A DNA stretch of 6,520 bases from Thermoprotei archaeon. GTDB lineage: Archaea; Thermoproteota; Thermoprotei; Thermofilales; B15-G2. The stretch covers positions 1 through 6,520 of the forward strand of contig QMRV01000104.1 in the NCBI GenBank assembly GCA_003649445.1. The letters are read 5' to 3'. The notes beneath the pieces are model-generated. The model was not told the DNA's origin. It ran no database searches and was given only the letters and a program-made list of their open reading frames with translations. The translations under genes and the position numbers were made by a program. Shown here piece by piece: positions 1-6,520 of the stretch; within the stretch, counting starts at the first letter, position 1, and each line of letters starts with the position of its first letter.

Positions 1-183
1 GAAATCACAAATACACTTTCTCCTATAAACACCCAACTTAGCAGCCTCCACTATATGGATTATTAAAAAACTTTCTATTAAACCATGTACTAAGCTAAGT
101 TAACACGTACTTCGAAAACATACCTAGCTTATAGCCTAGCAGGAAAGTTAATAGTGAAATAAGGTAAAAATAATGGTTGGAGC
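1..183. other. Left-edge intergenic region
   Basis: No convincing complete gene is seen here. The plus strand carries an in-frame TAA at 160-162 just before the first gene. Upstream of that gene, the stretch around 143-153 (AGTTAATAG) is the only TATA-like element at a suitable distance, and it is weak. On the minus strand a GTG at 51 opens a frame of 17 codons that runs off the left edge (encoding MEAAKLGVYRRKCICDF). It could be the start of a leftward gene, but it is too short to judge. Confidence 0.4.
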
Positions 184-1017
184 TTGAGAGCTTTGGGATG
201 GAACGTAATTAATAAACGTATAAAAGAGTGCGAACAACGGTATAAGAGCCCTTCAGATATTATTGAGTGTTTAAAGAGGTTAATCGATGTGTATGGAAGA
301 GATGGAATGATCCTTTACAGGATCGGTGTATGGTATGAAAACTTAGGTATATATGATAAAGCAATGGAATACTATAGAGAAGCTATTGAGAAGTTTCCGC
401 TTCCCAAATATAGGAGACTGGCTGAGGAAAGTTATAGGAGGGTTAAGCATATTGTTGAAGGAAAGCCTTCTGTTTCTAAAGAAATTTCAACTCTAATAAT
501 AGATGATGACACATTGTTCGTAGTTAACTGTACGAAAACAAAAACATGGAATTTAGCTAAAAGCTTAGGCTGCAATGTACCAAAACAATTACCCGCCATG
601 TTAGCATATCAGGGAAAATCTTTCCATGAATTCCTAGCTTTAATCAGAGAAATCGAAAAGTCCATCGGAAAACGTGTACACTGGGTCATACTTAGTGCTA
701 AATACGGCTTCCTAACACCCTGCGACATTATTATGGACTACGATGTAACCTTTGGACAAAAAGGCAGTATAAGCGACGATAAGCTTGCAGAACAGGTAAA
801 TTATAAGGAAATCGGTGGAAGAAAACTCTCAACCTTCAAAAGAATATACGTATACACAAAGAACCCTCAATACTACAGAAAAGCATGCAATGCTTTCAAA
901 AACGCTACCGAATGCATACAGTTATCAACATTGCGTCCATCACTAATAATTTCAACTAAACATAGTACTCAACTAAACAATGTTCCAAGCCTAACAAATA
1001 CTACGAAAACAAAGTAA
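184..1017 (+). CDS. TPR-like plus DUF6884/YaaA-like domain protein
   Basis: This 277-residue protein is soluble, with no signal peptide or membrane segment. Residues about 38-92 form paired amphipathic helices of TPR type (YRIGVWYENLGIYDKAMEYY, then AIEKFP), which suggests protein-protein contact. Residues about 108-245 match the DUF6884/YaaA-like pattern: a beta strand ending in NCTKTKTW (115-122), an AYQGKSF segment (141-147), and the hallmark ILSAKYGFL followed by P and a DYD (169-187). Members of this group are widespread in prokaryotes and phages, and their biochemical role is poorly defined. Residues 246-277 are a Ser/Thr/Asn-rich tail that is probably disordered. TTG at 184 is the first possible start after the in-frame TAA at 160. 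The GGAG at 179-182 is too close to serve it, so TTG at 193 is a real alternative. The domain call is fairly sure; the function is unknown. Confidence 0.8.
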   Translation: MRALGWNVINKRIKECEQRYKSPSDIIECLKRLIDVYGRDGMILYRIGVWYENLGIYDKAMEYYREAIEKFPLPKYRRLAEESYRRVKHIVEGKPSVSKEISTLIIDDDTLFVVNCTKTKTWNLAKSLGCNVPKQLPAMLAYQGKSFHEFLALIREIEKSIGKRVHWVILSAKYGFLTPCDIIMDYDVTFGQKGSISDDKLAEQVNYKEIGGRKLSTFKRIYVYTKNPQYYRKACNAFKNATECIQLSTLRPSLIISTKHSTQLNNVPSLTNTTKTK

Positions 1018-1437
1018 AAATATTTAAAACCATAAGTAAAGACCCTATAACAAACAAAAACATAAACTACAAATGCATAAAACTAGCAAAAACCACAACA
1101 ATCTTCTAAGCAAGCACAGAAAAGCATCGTTAATTAACAATAGATAATAATATAATAATAGTAAAAATATAGAATATAAAACATGGCAAAACATTCTCAT
1201 CAATACCTTTAACCATAAAAGATTTGACAAGAAAACAAACATACTAGATGTATCTAAGACTATATGCCATATACTATTCTTTTATTACAACATGATGTTT
1301 TAGCTTAATATGCATCCTTAATAATTATGTATTCTTTTCATGTTCTTTACCGACATAGAGCGATAACGGTTGGTTAAAGTTTTCTTGTAACTAATGCATA
1401 ATTTTATTTTGAAAACTGTAGGCAGAGATGCAAGCTA
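1018..1437. other. Gene-poor spacer of about 420 bases
   Basis: I see no supported gene or RNA here. The first part (about 1018-1250) is rich in A and C on the plus strand and almost lacks G. The second part (about 1250-1420) is T-rich. The open minus-strand frame at 1045-1242 encodes an almost pure Leu/Phe/Cys/Tyr string, which T-rich sequence produces by default. No CRISPR-like repeat, tRNA arm or strong hairpin was found. The right end holds the likely promoter of the next gene. Confidence 0.5.
1396..1408 (+). promoter_or_regulatory. Putative TATA box for the PD-(D/E)XK gene
   Basis: The A/T-only stretch ATAATTTTATTT lies about 30-40 bases before the ATG at 1438. An archaeal TATA box here would start transcription near 1428-1430, leaving a leader of about 10 bases. 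The region is A+T-rich throughout, so the match is only suggestive. Confidence 0.35.
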
Positions 1438-2106
1438 ATGCTACAAGAAAACATTTACGATAAAGAACAACTTCAAATAGTAAAGGAGGATTGGAAAATC
1501 AGGGATCAAATAAAGGAGGAAAGAAGCAAGTTAAGTGAAGAGGAAAGAGAGAAGCTTCGACTTAGCTACAATAGATTTCTAGGAGATACATCATGCCGTA
1601 TAGTTAAGGAATTCTTACATAAACATGTCCCTGAAAAATATGATATTACCGTGTCAGGATACATATGGCCTTTACCTAGAGAATACGATCTATTAATTGT
1701 TAGAAGAGAAGCTAAACCGCGCAAGTACACGAGAGCATATAATATTGACGATGTATTCTTCATCATCGAAGTAAAAGCAAGAGGAATGTTTCCGGAGAAA
1801 GATGGTAAAGAAAAAGGACTAAAGAGAGCAGTAGATAAACTGGCAAAAAACCTAAAAGAACCGATAACTAAGTTCAAGAAACCTCATGTCAAGTTGGCAT
1901 GTTTGCTCATAGGTGAGGCTGTACCAAAGAGAGAGGACGCCTTGAAGTGGACGAAAAAAGTCAGAGAGTTTATGAAAGAACATAATATTCCAGTATTCAT
2001 TTTGTCAAATACACGTGCAAAAACACCAGAAGAAGCTGTGAAACCATTTAAGGGGGAATGGAAGAAGTTTGTGAAATACGTAGTTGAAAACCTGCCGAAA
2101 ACATAA
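1438..2106 (+). CDS. Predicted PD-(D/E)XK nuclease
   Basis: This 222-residue soluble protein starts with a charged helical region (1-48) and continues into a restriction-nuclease-like core. The core has a helix with a conserved-looking Glu (RIVKEFL, 55-61), a strand carrying an acidic residue (EYDLLIV, Asp84), a spacer, and the strand FFIIEVKARG (108-116) with the E-x-K pair Glu111/Lys113. A further strand (KLACLLIGE, 152-160) and a helix/strand pair follow (KVREFMKEHNIPVFILS). Asp84 with Glu111-x-Lys113 is the classic metal-binding and catalytic set of the PD-(D/E)XK fold, so DNA cleavage or nicking is the likely activity. The layout recalls DUF6602-type nucleases, but I cannot confirm the family. 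The ATG at 1438 is the first start in frame after a TAA at 1399, and it has no clear Shine-Dalgarno. The gene appears monocistronic and converges on the operon to its right. No methyltransferase partner is visible. Confidence 0.78.
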   Translation: MLQENIYDKEQLQIVKEDWKIRDQIKEERSKLSEEEREKLRLSYNRFLGDTSCRIVKEFLHKHVPEKYDITVSGYIWPLPREYDLLIVRREAKPRKYTRAYNIDDVFFIIEVKARGMFPEKDGKEKGLKRAVDKLAKNLKEPITKFKKPHVKLACLLIGEAVPKREDALKWTKKVREFMKEHNIPVFILSNTRAKTPEEAVKPFKGEWKKFVKYVVENLPKT

Positions 2107-2109
2107 TTA

Positions 2110-2124
2110 AATTATTTTTTCTCC
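2110..2124 (+). terminator. U-rich terminator after the PD-(D/E)XK gene
   Basis: A run of T with few interruptions (ATTATTTTTTCTCC) begins a few bases after the stop codon at 2104-2106. Archaeal transcription usually ends at U-rich stretches without a strong hairpin. It also lies in the 45-base gap between convergent genes, where a terminator is expected. Confidence 0.5.
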
Positions 2125-2151
2125 CATCCTCTATAGTGCACAGCCATAAAC

Positions 2152-2466
2152 TTACATAATCTCCTTTACCACATATCTCTTCTCTAACATCAGAATCTTA
2201 AGCTTCAGTTTTCGCTTAAGTTCCTCAGGTATCTTCCTTACTAACTCCACATGCTTACTCTCAGTTAACACTAGAGCATATTCTGCGTTAAGACCCTTCA
2301 TAAGCATTAGAAGCTCCCCTAACGCTATATAGAAGTTTGTTTTAGCATCTCTAGTTTCCTTCCTAACAATCCTAGTTATGAGCCCCATTCCTTGCTTTTT
2401 CAGACGCAATATCAGTATCAAAATACCAAGTTTAAACATAAAAGCCCTTAAACACGTTATTGGCAT
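2152..2466 (-). CDS. Small protein resembling a PD-(D/E)XK C-terminal half
   Basis: This 104-residue protein is the third gene of a leftward operon and starts 8 bases after the stop of the preceding gene. It reads as a hydrophobic strand (LGILILILRLKKQG, 13-26), a long helix (KTNFYIALGELLMLMKG), a strand (YALVLT), a Lys/Glu-rich linker with IPEEL, and a final strand (LKLKILML). This strand-helix-strand order is what follows the E-x-K strand in many PD-(D/E)XK proteins. However, where E-x-K is expected there is LRLKK, and no Asp partner lies upstream, so it would be catalytically dead or a remnant. A short hydrophobic anchor is the other reading of residues 13-21. ATG at 2466 is used here; Met10 and Met27 are possible later starts. 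No family is recognised with confidence. Confidence 0.55.
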   Translation of the reverse strand: MPITCLRAFMFKLGILILILRLKKQGMGLITRIVRKETRDAKTNFYIALGELLMLMKGLNAEYALVLTESKHVELVRKIPEELKRKLKLKILMLEKRYVVKEIM

Positions 2467-2474
2467 CTTATTGC

Positions 2475-2711
2475 TTAAAGCTTCTTGTCGATATATTTCA
2501 GCACCTTATTTTTGCGGTATACCTCAGGTTTAACGACTTTGATAGAACCAATAACTAGGTCTTTAGTAACTTCAAGCCTACCCAAAGGGCCAATAATGTT
2601 TAATATGAATTTAGAAACCTGCCTAATACCTTCATTCCTAATACGTGTGTTCCAAGCTTTAATAGCTGCTCTTCTCCTCTTCCAATGGCTTTTTACTCTC
2701 CTCTTACCCAT
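2475..2711 (-). CDS. Hypothetical small basic protein
   Basis: This 78-residue protein has a very basic N-terminus (residues 2-29 hold about ten Lys/Arg plus two Trp, including WKRRRAAIKAWNTR), which suggests nucleic acid binding. A helix (IRQVSKFILNII) and a strand-rich C-terminal half (LGRLEV, LVIGSIKVVK) follow. No known family is recognised. The ATG at 2711 is preceded by GAAGGTAAGG, an acceptable Shine-Dalgarno region. The gene lies 24 bases after the 58-residue membrane-protein gene and 8 bases before the 104-residue gene, so the three are probably one transcript. It is not a frameshifted front half of the next gene: the next gene's frame is closed by a TAA a short way upstream and has no start codon before 2466. 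Confidence 0.6.
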   Translation of the reverse strand: MGKRRVKSHWKRRRAAIKAWNTRIRNEGIRQVSKFILNIIGPLGRLEVTKDLVIGSIKVVKPEVYRKNKVLKYIDKKL

Positions 2712-2735
2712 AAATACCTTACCTTCAAGATAGAA

Positions 2736-2912
2736 TTAACCTTTAGAGAATAATATTCCGGCAGCTATCATAAGAACCCCTAGAAACCCTAACGTTACCC
2801 TAGTATTGAAGTCTAAGTTACCTGAGAATATTGCTATTAATTCAGCTGAAAATCCTAATAAGACTGCCATAGCTGTACCTGAAATTATAGGTCTTTCGCC
2901 CATTCTTGTCAT
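2736..2912 (-). CDS. Small two-helix membrane protein
   Basis: This 58-residue reading frame runs from ATG at 2912 to TAA at 2736-2738. It has a short charged N-terminus (MTRMGERP), a first hydrophobic helix of about residues 9-31 (IISGTAMAVLLGFSAELIAI), a polar turn (GNLDFNTR, 31-38), and a second helix of about 39-55 (VTLGFLGVLMIAAGILF) ending in SKG. That is a complete helical hairpin, a far more orderly pattern than chance translation gives. ATG at 2903 (Met4) is an alternative start. It is the first gene of the leftward operon, and its promoter lies in the 100-base region shared with the winged-helix regulator. The function is unknown; small holin-like, toxin-like or membrane-anchor roles are conceivable but unsupported. 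Confidence 0.7.
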   Translation of the reverse strand: MTRMGERPIISGTAMAVLLGFSAELIAIFSGNLDFNTRVTLGFLGVLMIAAGILFSKG

Positions 2913-2937
2913 CTGTGCACTTTTTTAGCACAAATAA

Positions 2938-2961
2938 CTGATATATCTTATATTTAAATAT
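2938..2961 (-). promoter_or_regulatory. Leftward promoter of the three-gene operon
   Basis: Two A/T elements lie upstream of the ATG at 2912: GATATATC (2940-2947, centred 31 bases away) and the ATATTTAAATAT stretch (2950-2961, about 43 bases away). The first would give an almost leaderless transcript, the second a leader of about 17 bases. I cannot choose between them. Confidence 0.45.
2950..2961. promoter_or_regulatory. Perfect 12-base palindrome, possible operator
   Basis: ATATTTAAATAT reads the same on both strands and lies in the middle of the divergent promoter region between the operon and the winged-helix gene. A dimeric winged-helix protein could bind here and repress both directions. 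A/T-only palindromes arise easily in A+T-rich DNA, so this is a candidate only. Confidence 0.35.
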
Positions 2962-2984
2962 TTTGCACATCTATGACTAAAAAG

Positions 2985-2994
2985 TTTATATATA
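2985..2994 (+). promoter_or_regulatory. TATA box of the winged-helix gene
   Basis: TTTATATATA, preceded by the purine-rich AAAAAG (a BRE-like flank), is centred about 24 bases before the ATG at 3013. Transcription would begin at or within a few bases of that ATG, so the mRNA should be leaderless. No Shine-Dalgarno is present, which agrees with this. Confidence 0.7.
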
Positions 2995-3012
2995 CACGAT
3001 ATCTAGCAATAC

Positions 3013-3729
3013 ATGGTGTACGTCTTGGTCTATAAGAAAAAGTACGTTCCTACAAGTGCTAAAGCAGAAATTATAATAGAGGCTCTATGTAAAAAATCTC
3101 CTAGAACAATAAATGAACTAGCAGAAATTTTAGTTAATAAACTTGGGCTAAAGTTTACAACAGCCAGATCAGCTGTTTCCCGAATTATAAGCGAATTTAC
3201 AGAACTTGATATAATGGAGGAGGTCGGTACAGATAAGAGAGGCTCTAGACTCATCGACATTTCCCCTTCAGGAGCTTACGTCATAGCATGTAATCTACCA
3301 GACCTTAAAACGGAATTCCTTAAAAAAGAAGATCTAATAGAGCTCCTCCGTAGAAAAAACAATGAAGCAGCTGACGCTTTAGAAGTATACTACATGCTCA
3401 AAAAGGAAACAGAAGAAGAACTAGAAAGTATCGATTTCTATGATGCCATAACTTTAACCATGGAGTTAGAAGATATTGAAGTTAATAGCTGGAAAGGATT
3501 AGCTGACGAAATAATATCCCTCTGCACAAGCGAAATAGAACGTTACTTAGACAAAAAAGGCGGAATCCTAGACCTAAGAGAACTAACAAAAGAAATACCA
3601 GACAAAACAAAGAAAGCATACATAAAAATACTCTACGCATACTTAGACGAAATAGATGAAGAACTAAGAAAACTAACGCTCAGAAAGGAAAAAATAAAAG
3701 AACTAATTAAAGAAGCAGAGACCACATAA
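3013..3729 (+). CDS. Winged-helix DNA-binding protein with helical C-terminus
   Basis: This 238-residue soluble protein is probably a transcription regulator. The N-terminal winged helix has helix 1 at about 16-27 (AKAEIIIEALCK), helix 2 at 32-43 (TINELAEILVNK), a recognition helix at about 47-62 (KFTTARSAVSRIISEF), and a wing at about 67-84 (IMEEVGTDKRGSRLIDI). The remainder is mostly charged helix: 100-140 with ELLRRK and KKETEEELE, and a coiled-coil-like end (210-236, LDEIDEELRKLTLRKEKIKE), probably for dimerisation or partner binding. The start is set by the TATA box about 24 bases upstream. It diverges from the three-gene operon across 100 bases, an arrangement typical of a local regulator controlling itself and its neighbours. 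The exact family is not recognised. Wobble bases in the last 60 codons are nearly all A or C, unlike the first part of the gene. Confidence 0.8.
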   Translation: MVYVLVYKKKYVPTSAKAEIIIEALCKKSPRTINELAEILVNKLGLKFTTARSAVSRIISEFTELDIMEEVGTDKRGSRLIDISPSGAYVIACNLPDLKTEFLKKEDLIELLRRKNNEAADALEVYYMLKKETEEELESIDFYDAITLTMELEDIEVNSWKGLADEIISLCTSEIERYLDKKGGILDLRELTKEIPDKTKKAYIKILYAYLDEIDEELRKLTLRKEKIKELIKEAETT

Positions 3730-3775
3730 GTGCTATGAAAAATAGCCACAATGAAAAATGCTAAGAGGTACCCAT

Positions 3776-3799
3776 AGAATAATTTCTTTATTTTATTCT
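3776..3799 (+). terminator. Hairpin and T-rich terminator after the winged-helix gene
   Basis: AGAATAA (3776-3782) pairs with TTATTCT (3793-3799) around a 10-base, mainly T loop. The T-rich stretch follows the gene's stop codon by about 50 bases and would give a U-rich RNA end. The stem is only 7 A/T-rich pairs, so the U-rich run is probably the active part. Confidence 0.4.
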
Positions 3800-3932
3800 C
3801 TGGTCATTTAAGAATACGCGGATAGAAAGATTATTGAGTATTGTTAATTGAGGAAGCTAATGGAAAGGATGGAAGGACCTAGGTTTTCCAGTAATATGTA
3901 AGGATTAGGTTTCATGAATATCACCTATACCA

Positions 3933-6164
3933 TTACCTGTACTTTAATTCTAACTTTGTTTTGTACATTTTAGTTTTCATCCATCCCATTATGCCTTTAT
4001 GTTTACGGAGGACATCATGTTCTATTATTTTTCCTGTACGGTTATCTACGAAAGCGTAGTAATAGTTTTCTTCAGGGTCTTTTAATTTGACAACATAGGC
4101 ATTAGGCTTCGTTGAGGATTGCTTAACCTGAACTATTTCCAAATTACTTACTTTATACATGTTTGTAACGTATTGTTTGAAGAATATCTCGGCTCCTTCA
4201 GCTTTCAATAAGTTTTCTTGCTTAGCAATGTTGCCTTTAACCTTGTCTATGTGGAACGTCCTATACCATAGAGGAGTTTCAACCACAATTACCCAATTCT
4301 TTTCTGCTAATGTTCTTCTTGCTATGTTTAATGGCGTATCTTTAATTTGTTTAACAGCATTAATAGCTATATTGTCGACAATTTCTTCTTTTAAGTACAT
4401 GTTTTCTAACATGTAGTCAAGTGTTGAGGCATCAACTTTGTACTCGTATACGTAGTCTTTATCGAATGCTTTAAGACTGTAAGTTTTCGTTTCTTCGTTA
4501 AAGGTTAGTGTGGCAATGTTCTTATCCGGATATTTCTTAAGGAACGTTTCTCTTACTCTTTTCTCACTAAACACTACTTCATAGTTTACAATATTACCTG
4601 TTTTTGCATCTATGCTGATTGTAGATGATCCATCAGGTGAAGTAGTGTTAAAGCTCCAAACCCTATGGTTGACAAGCTTATAGTCAAGTATTTTTAAATC
4701 TTGCAGACCATATCTATTTCTTAAAAATTCCTCTGCAATGGTAAATGCCTTAACGTGACTGATTAGGTCTTTTTCTATACTATATTTTCCTGTTTGCGCA
4801 TCTATGGTAATGAGGTATAACTTATTTTCATCTTCTATGTCTACAATTATTTCCTCTTCTTTCTCTTCAACACCTATAATGCTTCCTTCAGCAATTAGAG
4901 CTTTAGCCAATGATATAGCTGCTTCCTTCTTGAACCTAGTGCTAACCTCTAGTACTTCACCAGAATACCTGTTTACCGTAGACTTAACAGTGAACCTTGG
5001 AGTCTCACCTTCAAATACAACTTTGTATTTTTCATGGCCCACAGGCTCTAGACTAACGACGTTTTCGTTAACTTTCTCTTCTATAACCTTACTTACAATG
5101 TCCTTTAGCGTTTCATTATCTAAAGGTTCGAAATCAAGTTTAAGCTTATCCTTAACCATGTCAACTTCAAATCTACCGCTATTGTATGTTAGTGCGAAAT
5201 CTAAAACCCATTTTAGGCCTAGATATAGATTTTTCCAAGAAATTATTGATACATCTCTTGTAGAGCAATCGTATTTTGAAGCTACCTTGGATTTAACAAT
5301 GCGTTTAGCTGCTGTTATACCTACTCCTTTACCCTTAATGAGTTTCGATGCTTTAACCCTACCATACCTTAATCTAGCTTTTCTTCTAACTTCAGAAGCA
5401 ATCCATGATTTCCCTTCTTTGCTAACGTCGAGTATAACATGTCCATCATGAAGTACAAGTGCTTTGCCGCTAGCTGTTCTCTGCCGTACTCTACCAGCTG
5501 AATCATAGCCTATATAATATGCTTTCCATTCAACAAGGTGCAGTGGAGCATATTCTAAAACGGCTTTTTCAATAGAAAACTTTTCAACACCATACTTTTC
5601 CTTTAAAATCTCACCTAGCCTATCGGCAATACCCTCATAGTCGTATCTTAGAATAATAGGGTATTCTAGTTCGAAAACTCTCAAGACCTCACGTGGTCTT
5701 TCCTTTTTCACTTTAACGGGAGGTTTCAAAACTGTTTCAGGAACAGCGGTAGGTATGGGAACACCGTACTGTTTAATAAGGTCTAAAAGTTTAAACCCAT
5801 TAACCAAGAAAACCTTGCTTTTAAACTCGTAATTACTCTCAATAAATTCAACAGCAGAACGAGTGAAGTCAGAGGTAGTAACGAAAATGCCTTTATCAGC
5901 TCTAGCAGCTTTAAGAGCAATAATAAAATGTTGTAAATCAGTATGGCCAACCTTCCTACCGGAACTATACCTCTTCACCTGGACAACATATTTTTCCCTA
6001 AAACCAAACTCGTTAACCTTAAAAGCCTCAATATCAACACCCTTATCGCTAGGACCACCAACAACCCTAATATCCTTAAACCCCATCCTCCTAAGAAGCT
6101 CAGCAACAATCTCCTCTAAAACACTAGGAGGAACATTCTGAAGGAGCCTAAGCTCATAACTCAC
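3933..6164 (-). CDS. Mrr-type nuclease fused to PepSY-like repeats
   Basis: The 743-residue product (counted from GTG at 6164) starts with an Mrr-type restriction-nuclease domain (about 5-138). It has helix-1 Glu17/Glu18 and MGF, GGPSDKGVDIEAF with Asp44, YVVQVKRY with Gln62-x-Lys64, and GIFVTTSDFTRSA (92-104). These are the complete D...QxK catalytic features of the family, whose members cut DNA, often methylated. A basic linker (147-158) leads to a domain at about 160-330, which includes a Lys/Arg-rich stretch (258-297) that may bind DNA. From about 340 to 715 there are about six PepSY-like units with strands ending in D-x-x-T-G-type turns at 398-402, 455-459, 519-523, 578-582, 640-644 and 707-711. 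No signal peptide or membrane segment is clear. Start: an open frame extends to TTG 6191, but the TATA box at 6200-6210 puts transcription near 6179, leaving GTG 6173 or GTG 6164. GTG 6164 has GGTG six bases upstream. Confidence 0.85.
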   Translation of the reverse strand: MSYELRLLQNVPPSVLEEIVAELLRRMGFKDIRVVGGPSDKGVDIEAFKVNEFGFREKYVVQVKRYSSGRKVGHTDLQHFIIALKAARADKGIFVTTSDFTRSAVEFIESNYEFKSKVFLVNGFKLLDLIKQYGVPIPTAVPETVLKPPVKVKKERPREVLRVFELEYPIILRYDYEGIADRLGEILKEKYGVEKFSIEKAVLEYAPLHLVEWKAYYIGYDSAGRVRQRTASGKALVLHDGHVILDVSKEGKSWIASEVRRKARLRYGRVKASKLIKGKGVGITAAKRIVKSKVASKYDCSTRDVSIISWKNLYLGLKWVLDFALTYNSGRFEVDMVKDKLKLDFEPLDNETLKDIVSKVIEEKVNENVVSLEPVGHEKYKVVFEGETPRFTVKSTVNRYSGEVLEVSTRFKKEAAISLAKALIAEGSIIGVEEKEEEIIVDIEDENKLYLITIDAQTGKYSIEKDLISHVKAFTIAEEFLRNRYGLQDLKILDYKLVNHRVWSFNTTSPDGSSTISIDAKTGNIVNYEVVFSEKRVRETFLKKYPDKNIATLTFNEETKTYSLKAFDKDYVYEYKVDASTLDYMLENMYLKEEIVDNIAINAVKQIKDTPLNIARRTLAEKNWVIVVETPLWYRTFHIDKVKGNIAKQENLLKAEGAEIFFKQYVTNMYKVSNLEIVQVKQSSTKPNAYVVKLKDPEENYYYAFVDNRTGKIIEHDVLRKHKGIMGWMKTKMYKTKLELKYR

Positions 6165-6198
6165 ACAAAACACCAAAATAAAATCTAACAAACCAAAT

Positions 6199-6211
6199 AC
6201 TTATATCTTAA
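6199..6211 (-). promoter_or_regulatory. TATA box of the Mrr-repeat gene
   Basis: On the minus strand this reads TAAGATATAAGTA. Its centre is near 6205, so transcription should start near 6178-6180. That is downstream of the TTG at 6191, which argues that the true start is GTG at 6173 or 6164. Confidence 0.55.
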
Positions 6212-6307
6212 AACAAAAAAACATTAAACAACAATTCTAACCAAACCAAAACATAATAAGAACACTTAAACATAATAACCCATAACACACTGCTTCAGGG
6301 ACCAAGA

Positions 6308-6520
6308 TTGATTGATAGGCTTTACTGGGCTGCTAAAACATACTTCTCAAGTTATGGTGTTGCATGGTTTGATTTAGAACTTTTTCTGAAAATTCTCAGA
6401 TACGTCGGCTTAAAAGGCCAGATTACCGATAGAGAACTTAGCAAGTTCATTTACGAGCAGGCTGGGGTAAAGTTTGCTAGAACAGGTAGGGAAGGATACT
6501 ATTTTGCTAAACTGCTAAGA
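6308..6520 (+). CDS. Unrecognised gene, 5' end only
   Basis: An open frame begins at TTG 6308, with AGGGAC (6297-6302) at Shine-Dalgarno distance, and runs without a stop to the right edge (71 codons seen). The frame is closed upstream by TAA at 6257 and offers no ATG or GTG start. The visible protein has aromatic-rich helices (LIDRLYWAAKTYFSSYGVAW), then DLELFLKILRYVGLKG, ITDRELSKFIYEQAGVKF, and TGREGYYFAKLLR. The DLELFLKIL...TDRELSKFIYEQ spacing could be a helix-turn-helix, but I recognise no family. The base composition turns richer in G right at about 6290, as expected on entering a real gene. It is divergent from the Mrr-repeat gene, with 143 bases between their starts. Confidence 0.6.
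   Translation, partial: MIDRLYWAAKTYFSSYGVAWFDLELFLKILRYVGLKGQITDRELSKFIYEQAGVKFARTGREGYYFAKLLR

Follow-up and report, generated by a model that had tools for sequence, protein, structure and literature searches.

A predicted cytoplasmic Mrr-type nuclease joined to tandem PepSY-like units in a Thermoprotei archaeon

We analysed a stretch of 6,520 nucleotides from a Thermoprotei archaeon (Thermofilales, B15-G2; assembly GCA_003649445.1, contig QMRV01000104.1, positions 1 to 6,520), hereafter the window, in which a 743-codon frame at 3933-6164 on the reverse strand encodes a protein of 743 amino acids plus stop. The product is a predicted nuclease of a known kind that has an unusual arm, and we hold with high confidence that it is a cytoplasmic protein in which an Mrr_cat domain is followed by tandem PepSY-like units. 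Two relatives match over 100% of the query, P0002 with 97% and P0003 with 80% identity, and a third, P0005, matches over 99% with 30% identity; because these matches run along the whole length, the frame is taken to be a real and intact gene. Its exact start is uncertain, the in-frame candidates being GTG at 6164, GTG at 6173 and TTG at 6191; P0002 starts at the equivalent of 6173 and P0003 at the equivalent of 6164. The family further includes P0004, a fragment devoid of the nuclease domain, and P0006, a restriction endonuclease of Acidianus sp. HS-5 encoded on a 2.58-Mb contig and 24% identical to the window protein. The features of the gene are the following (U0 to U7, predicted units; model, AlphaFold2 model; pLDDT, predicted local distance difference test).

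3933..6164, reverse strand: whole gene, GTG start, with full-length relatives P0002, P0003 and P0005
6201..6213, reverse strand: possible TATA-like stretch ahead of the gene, identified by eye and unscored
5775..6140, reverse strand: Mrr_cat nuclease domain, residues 9-130 (Pfam PF04471, E 6.4e-26)
6033-6035, 5979-5981 and 5973-5975, reverse strand: catalytic residues D44, Q62 and K64 (D...QxK motif)
5691..5750, reverse strand: flexible linker (hinge), residues 139-158 (pLDDT below 50; differences from P0003 dense from residue 145)
5406..5645, reverse strand: U0, divergent PepSY-like unit, residues 174-253, first strand long (model; profile matches mostly weak, the best, U0-U7, scoring 16.2; no Pfam match)
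5127..5405, reverse strand: basic segment 254-346, candidate DNA contact (charge count, model)
within 5127..5405, reverse strand: U1, divergent unit 281-346 (U1-U4 profile match 17.6 over 58 columns; no Pfam match)
4932..5123, reverse strand: U2, PepSY-like unit 348-411, turn at 398 (model; Pfam E 0.031; profile pairs)
4761..4931, reverse strand: U3, PepSY-like unit 412-468, turn at 455, net charge -7 (model; charge; Pfam E 0.035; profile pairs)
4569..4760, reverse strand: U4, PepSY-like unit 469-532, turn at 519 (model; Pfam E 0.0017; profile pairs)
4392..4568, reverse strand: U5, PepSY-like unit 533-591, degenerate turn at 578 (model; Pfam E 0.0035; profile pairs)
4206..4391, reverse strand: U6, PepSY-like unit 592-653, turn at 640 (model, profile pairs; no PepSY match alone)
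4008..4205, reverse strand: U7, PepSY-like unit 654-719, turn at 707 (model; Pfam E 0.001; profile pairs)
3936..4001, reverse strand: C-terminal basic helix 722-743, net charge +6 (model, charge count)

The Mrr_cat match scores 91.2 bits against a cut-off of 21, and the domain has a predicted nuclease fold. The initial annotation had read an intact N-terminal catalytic set, and the three residues are indeed present and identical in all five sequences that have the domain (the window protein, P0002, P0003, P0005 and P0006; the fragment P0004 was left out of this count), from which we infer that the domain cuts DNA. No known reader domain (Mrr_N, SRA or winged helix) was found in the protein by Pfam at E up to 1, and only 8 residues lie upstream of the Mrr_cat match; for these reasons the protein is not classed as an EcoKMrr- or MspJI-type enzyme.

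The same annotation had proposed that this nuclease is joined to an array of about six PepSY-like repeats, a proposal that both Pfam and the model support. In the whole protein PepSY (PF03413) is matched over three stretches with E 1e-10 and 42.2 bits, against a cut-off of 24. It is also above the Pfam cut-off in P0002, P0003 and P0004, and is without a match in P0005 and P0006. In P0005 the C-terminal part aligns with almost the full length of the family profile (hhalign E 4e-34, 569 columns), and in P0006 it gives a modest match that scores 40.0 over 190 columns, with a probability of 43%, compared with at most about 19 in 20 shuffles. The AlphaFold2 model of the window protein, built on a six-sequence alignment, has a pLDDT of 86 and a predicted template modelling score of 0.44, a value low enough that the mutual placement of the domains is not fixed by it. 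It shows six consecutive units between residues 350 and 719, each composed of a helix (350-365, 413-423, 470-485, 534-544, 593-606 and 655-670) followed by four strands. These are preceded by two longer and divergent units, the first with a helix at 176-191 and strands at 197-220 and 226-237, the second with a helix at 283-297 and strands at 305-324, 329-335 and 340-344, so that one should rather speak of six clear units and, in addition, two divergent ones (174-253 and 281-346). The model of P0006 (pLDDT 71) likewise contains the nuclease, a pair of divergent units (helices at 163 and 251; pLDDT in part below 50) and core units with helices at 318, 378, 430, 490 and 544, plus one at 602 at low confidence; it is not fully independent, as its alignment included the window protein.

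The six turns by which the repeats had originally been recognised, spaced by 57, 64, 59, 62 and 67 residues, each coincide with the final residue of the third strand in a predicted unit. The two that had been called degenerate are so, the turn at 578 (DASTLDY) lacking the glycine and that at 640 (DKVKGN) lacking the T/S. PepSY proteins are usually, although not by definition, extracytoplasmic. The window protein does not appear to follow this habit: as had been noted, a signal peptide is not apparent, and a search for export or membrane segments, made without a dedicated signal-peptide predictor, found no hydrophobic stretch (best 19-residue mean 1.34).

When the units were submitted to Pfam one by one, PepSY was the best family for 5 of the 8, and U0, U1 and U6 had none. 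The shuffled controls, six single units and two whole arrays, never matched PepSY (0 of 8). We also compared single-unit profiles with each other using hhalign, with 224 column-shuffled pairs as the null distribution. All 15 core-unit pairs exceeded the 95th percentile of the shuffles (11.9) and 10 exceeded their maximum (16.0), with a mean score of 18.0 versus 8.6 for shuffled pairs; among the 13 pairs involving U0 or U1 the corresponding numbers were 5 and 2. In a harsher control, which paired the core units with four further segments of this protein, some of them overlapping (24 pairs), the mean was 9.6 and the maximum 17.4, a value surpassed by 9 of the 15 core pairs. The array stands out collectively, whereas weak individual pairs do not. 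No single unit reaches the 24-bit cut-off (best 19.8 bits), 2 of the 8 shuffles matched other families, one of them at E 0.0098, and U0 and U1 count as units mainly by virtue of the predicted model. As shuffles also matched other families, the weaker single-unit E-values carry little when taken alone; what counts is that one and the same family recurs five times. At the DNA level, a 26-base direct repeat is found at the turns of U3 and U4 (4786-4811 and 4594-4619, 81% identical, both copies in frame and 64 codons, or 192 bases, apart). It is possibly a trace of the protein repeat, and is one among 16 direct-repeat families in the window, many of which are likely due to chance.

That the C-terminal part is instead a beta-propeller or another known repeat fold seems to us very improbable. 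The idea came from Foldseek, in which most of the best 50 of 1545 PDB rows (E up to 10) belong to what we take to be beta-propellers, with E-values down to 1e-8. It was rejected for the low template modelling scores (TM, below 0.2) and the very high root-mean-square deviations (about 28-41 A) of these rows, which indicate that the hairpin pattern is common to both and the overall shape is not. Moreover, the core units open with a helix of 11-16 residues, which propeller blades are not known to have, and Pfam reports PepSY above the cut-off and no propeller family. A single known non-PepSY domain covering residues 340-715 was also looked for, and none was above the Pfam cut-off, NCBIfam gave nothing and PADLOC had no match to the array. 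The one match in PHROGs was weak, to a tail spike, and lies at 501-592 (E 0.011). Sequence matches in the PDB were three rows that we do not believe, the best being a glutamate receptor fragment (E 0.00058), with an SMC chain at E 0.0084; the profile search of the PDB with the window family returned one row at E 0.69.

The nuclease and the array have diverged to different extents. Relative to the window protein, P0002 differs at 3 of 137 nuclease positions (one of the 3 being the start codon) and 23 of 584 array positions, P0005 at 61 of 128 and 430 of 573, and P0006 at 77 of 129 and 415 of 513, giving array-to-nuclease distance ratios of 1.8, 2.1 and 1.8, respectively. P0003 has a ratio of 18, with 2 of 137 and 136 of 584 differences; P0002 and P0003 differ from each other at 5 of 142 nuclease and 140 of 601 array positions. 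A ratio of about 2 predicts 16-19 nuclease differences for P0003 versus the 2 seen (P 8e-6 to 6e-7). Between residues 72 and 145 the two proteins agree throughout, and differences become dense from 145, inside the flexible linker. Taken over its whole length, P0003 is near-identical to the window protein in residues 1-142 and about 23% different in residues 143-743. The simplest reading of the alignment is that one part was exchanged at the hinge. Under an assumed ratio of 5 the nuclease deficit has a P of only 0.025, and the same pattern could arise if the nuclease is strongly constrained or if the assembly is chimeric.

Charge is distributed unevenly along the protein. The segment 254-346 carries a net charge of +13 in the window protein and of +13, +14, +12, +12 and +4 in P0002, P0003, P0004, P0005 and P0006, being basic in all five relatives while its identity to the window protein falls from 97% to 82%, 65%, 29% and 22%. 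The C-terminal helix is at +6 in the window protein, and at +6, +6, +8, +6 and +3 in the same relatives. For the core units the values lie between -7 and +2 in the window protein and between -8 and +5 in the relatives. This pattern suggests contact with DNA through the basic parts and with a protein or another ligand through the core units. The C-terminal helix, which forms the last 22 residues and ends in LELKYR (LDLKYR in P0005; LDNEYK inside the tail of P0006), is 91%, 44% and 39% identical in P0003, P0005 and P0006, above any unit of the array.

We propose that the gene encodes a single-gene, cytoplasmic, restriction-type nuclease whose Mrr_cat domain would cut DNA and whose hinge of about 20 residues would lead into an arm made up of the two divergent PepSY-like units and the six typical ones. 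DNA would be held by the basic segment together with the basic helix at the C-terminus, as their conserved charge suggests. The six PepSY units would form the part for recognition and control, binding a protein or another infection cue and restraining or aiming the nuclease until that cue arrives; this role is suggested by what PepSY domains do elsewhere and by the divergence of the array. To the full mechanism, a defence nuclease with the array as recognition or autoinhibitory arm and the basic segment gripping DNA, we assign a probability of about 0.45. Considered separately, a role in defence is somewhat favoured, and control or aiming of the nuclease by the array has even or slightly better odds. 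One might speculate further, and this we consider unlikely, that the protein belongs to a novel class of archaeal immune nucleases that act alone, its intracellular array being an exchangeable, protein-sensing tripwire. Such an array would silence the nuclease and bind a viral protein via its variable units, and it would be replaced or diversified at the hinge with the nuclease kept constant, in the way that restriction enzymes exchange their specificity parts.

The array might instead read DNA, the PepSY-like units, chiefly the basic U0/U1 region, recognising modified or special DNA, so that the protein would be a Type IV enzyme of the conventional sort that carries a new reader domain, the remaining array being a spacer. 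The attached domain of Mrr_cat enzymes reads DNA, or is presumed to, in the reviewed cases (PMC3874153, excerpt), and the charge of the segment 254-346, together with its conservation in P0003 and P0004, would suit such a reader. However, the six typical units of the window protein are near neutral or acidic, other parts are kept equally well or better (in P0003, U3 at 88% and the C-terminal helix; in P0004, U0 at 69%, and U7 with the C-terminal helix at 68%), and literature searches, made among open-licence papers, turned up no DNA-reading PepSY module; on balance we find a DNA reader doubtful. Less credible still is an array acting as a scaffold for oligomerisation or for tethering to a cellular complex, with the nuclease serving repair or genome maintenance rather than defence. 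Crosslinking of YpeB suggests a dimer or larger multimer, potentially formed via the C-terminal PepSY domains (PMC6660665, excerpt), and the window holds no proof of defence; but the few relatives found, in capped searches, are unlike what a housekeeping gene would show, mREase_IV is the best PADLOC match, and 19 of the best 20 of 51 plasmid matches are annotated as restriction endonucleases (the remaining record has no annotation).

The number of relatives is a lower bound, as the protein searches scored about 8,000 candidates each, and one of them missed P0005 and P0006 even though both were in the query. Beyond the six proteins, the matches listed cover 14-21% of the query only, via the nuclease as judged from their listed domains. 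None of the 51 plasmid matches exceeds 80% of the query, and the best 20 cover only the nuclease part. Viral contigs gave no relative when scanned with the family (two scans, one of them with P0005) or with the neighbours at 3013-3729, 1438-2106 and 184-1017, phage records gave none for the protein or the window DNA, and plasmid records had no match for the three neighbour genes. Scans of genome contigs with single proteins, which are sensitive to close relatives only, found 0 relatives, and the own genomes of the window and of P0006 did not turn up, which leaves this absence with little weight.

Among known systems, the window protein resembles the Mrr and Type IV nucleases (EcoKMrr, MspJI family) in its Mrr_cat domain with D...QxK, in joining a nuclease to a long non-nuclease part and in having no NTPase domain (Pfam, E up to 1). 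In EcoKMrr the added part is an N-terminal Mrr-N domain and in MspJI an N-terminal SRA-like domain (PMC3874153, excerpt), whereas here it is a C-terminal PepSY array. The PF03413 match is shared with PepSY proteins such as YpeB of Bacillus spores, DbfQ and the propeptides of M4 proteases, and the C-terminal domain of YpeB (5boi) also has more than one PepSY unit in tandem. M4-type propeptides belong to secreted proteases. According to the excerpts consulted, YpeB acts in the spore together with the lytic enzyme SleB (PMC6660665) and DbfQ is periplasmic and regulates a sensor kinase (PMC12714742). Unlike all of these, the window protein has no visible export signal, has six to eight units and is joined to a nuclease. 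The closest likeness of the whole is P0006, which has a predicted nuclease, two divergent units and five clear plus one low-confidence helix-plus-four-strand units, but differs by its low identity, by having no Pfam PepSY match and by being named only restriction endonuclease in its source. Our literature searches, among open-licence papers, turned up no Mrr-PepSY protein, and the excerpt of PMC4158269 names PepSY once, in a likely secreted protease.

If the proposed mechanism is true, a module familiar from spores, from the propeptides of proteases and from periplasmic regulators has taken on a new use within cells, probably those of archaea, where it controls an enzyme that cuts DNA. The Mrr group, in which the added domains known so far are actual or presumed DNA readers, would gain a type of sensor, and nuclease control by a protein-binding array could be tested directly in a one-gene system. 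Acidianus belongs to the Crenarchaeota. An overlooked type of nuclease would matter there, since Crenarchaeota are generally depleted in restriction-modification systems according to a survey (PMC10609329, excerpt).

The nuclease gene is flanked on each side by frames on the opposite strand, and the neighbourhood comprises the following.

184-1017, forward strand: TPR repeat followed by a DUF6884 / YaaA-like domain, an uncharacterised fusion (Pfam)
1438-2106, forward strand: DUF6602 protein (Pfam; PADLOC PD-DExK match, E 4.3e-6)
3013-3729, forward strand: 238-amino-acid frame, convergent with the nuclease gene (no family above cut-off; weak helix-turn-helix match, possibly at the start; charged end)
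6308 onward, forward strand: frame without a family match (Pfam, PADLOC)

No partner gene was seen, and no methyltransferase was present among the eight window frames checked by Pfam. This neighbourhood is compatible with a gene that forms a unit of its own in a stretch perhaps rich in defence genes, and says no more. Neither a tRNA nor an Rfam family at gathering score is present in the window; a promoter scan with a bacterial model was at chance level (7 found versus 7.8 expected), and 2 terminator-like sites were found versus 1.1 expected. The DUF6602 product is perhaps a second nuclease-fold protein within 6.5 kb, to judge from its PADLOC match. For the product of 184-1017, PADLOC gives PDC-M57A (E 0.001) and DpdC (E 0.043), both weakly. 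On the reverse strand, at 2475-2711, a small and very basic frame of 78 amino acids (KRRVKSHWKRRRAAIKAW), without a Pfam match, could encode a DNA- or RNA-binding protein.
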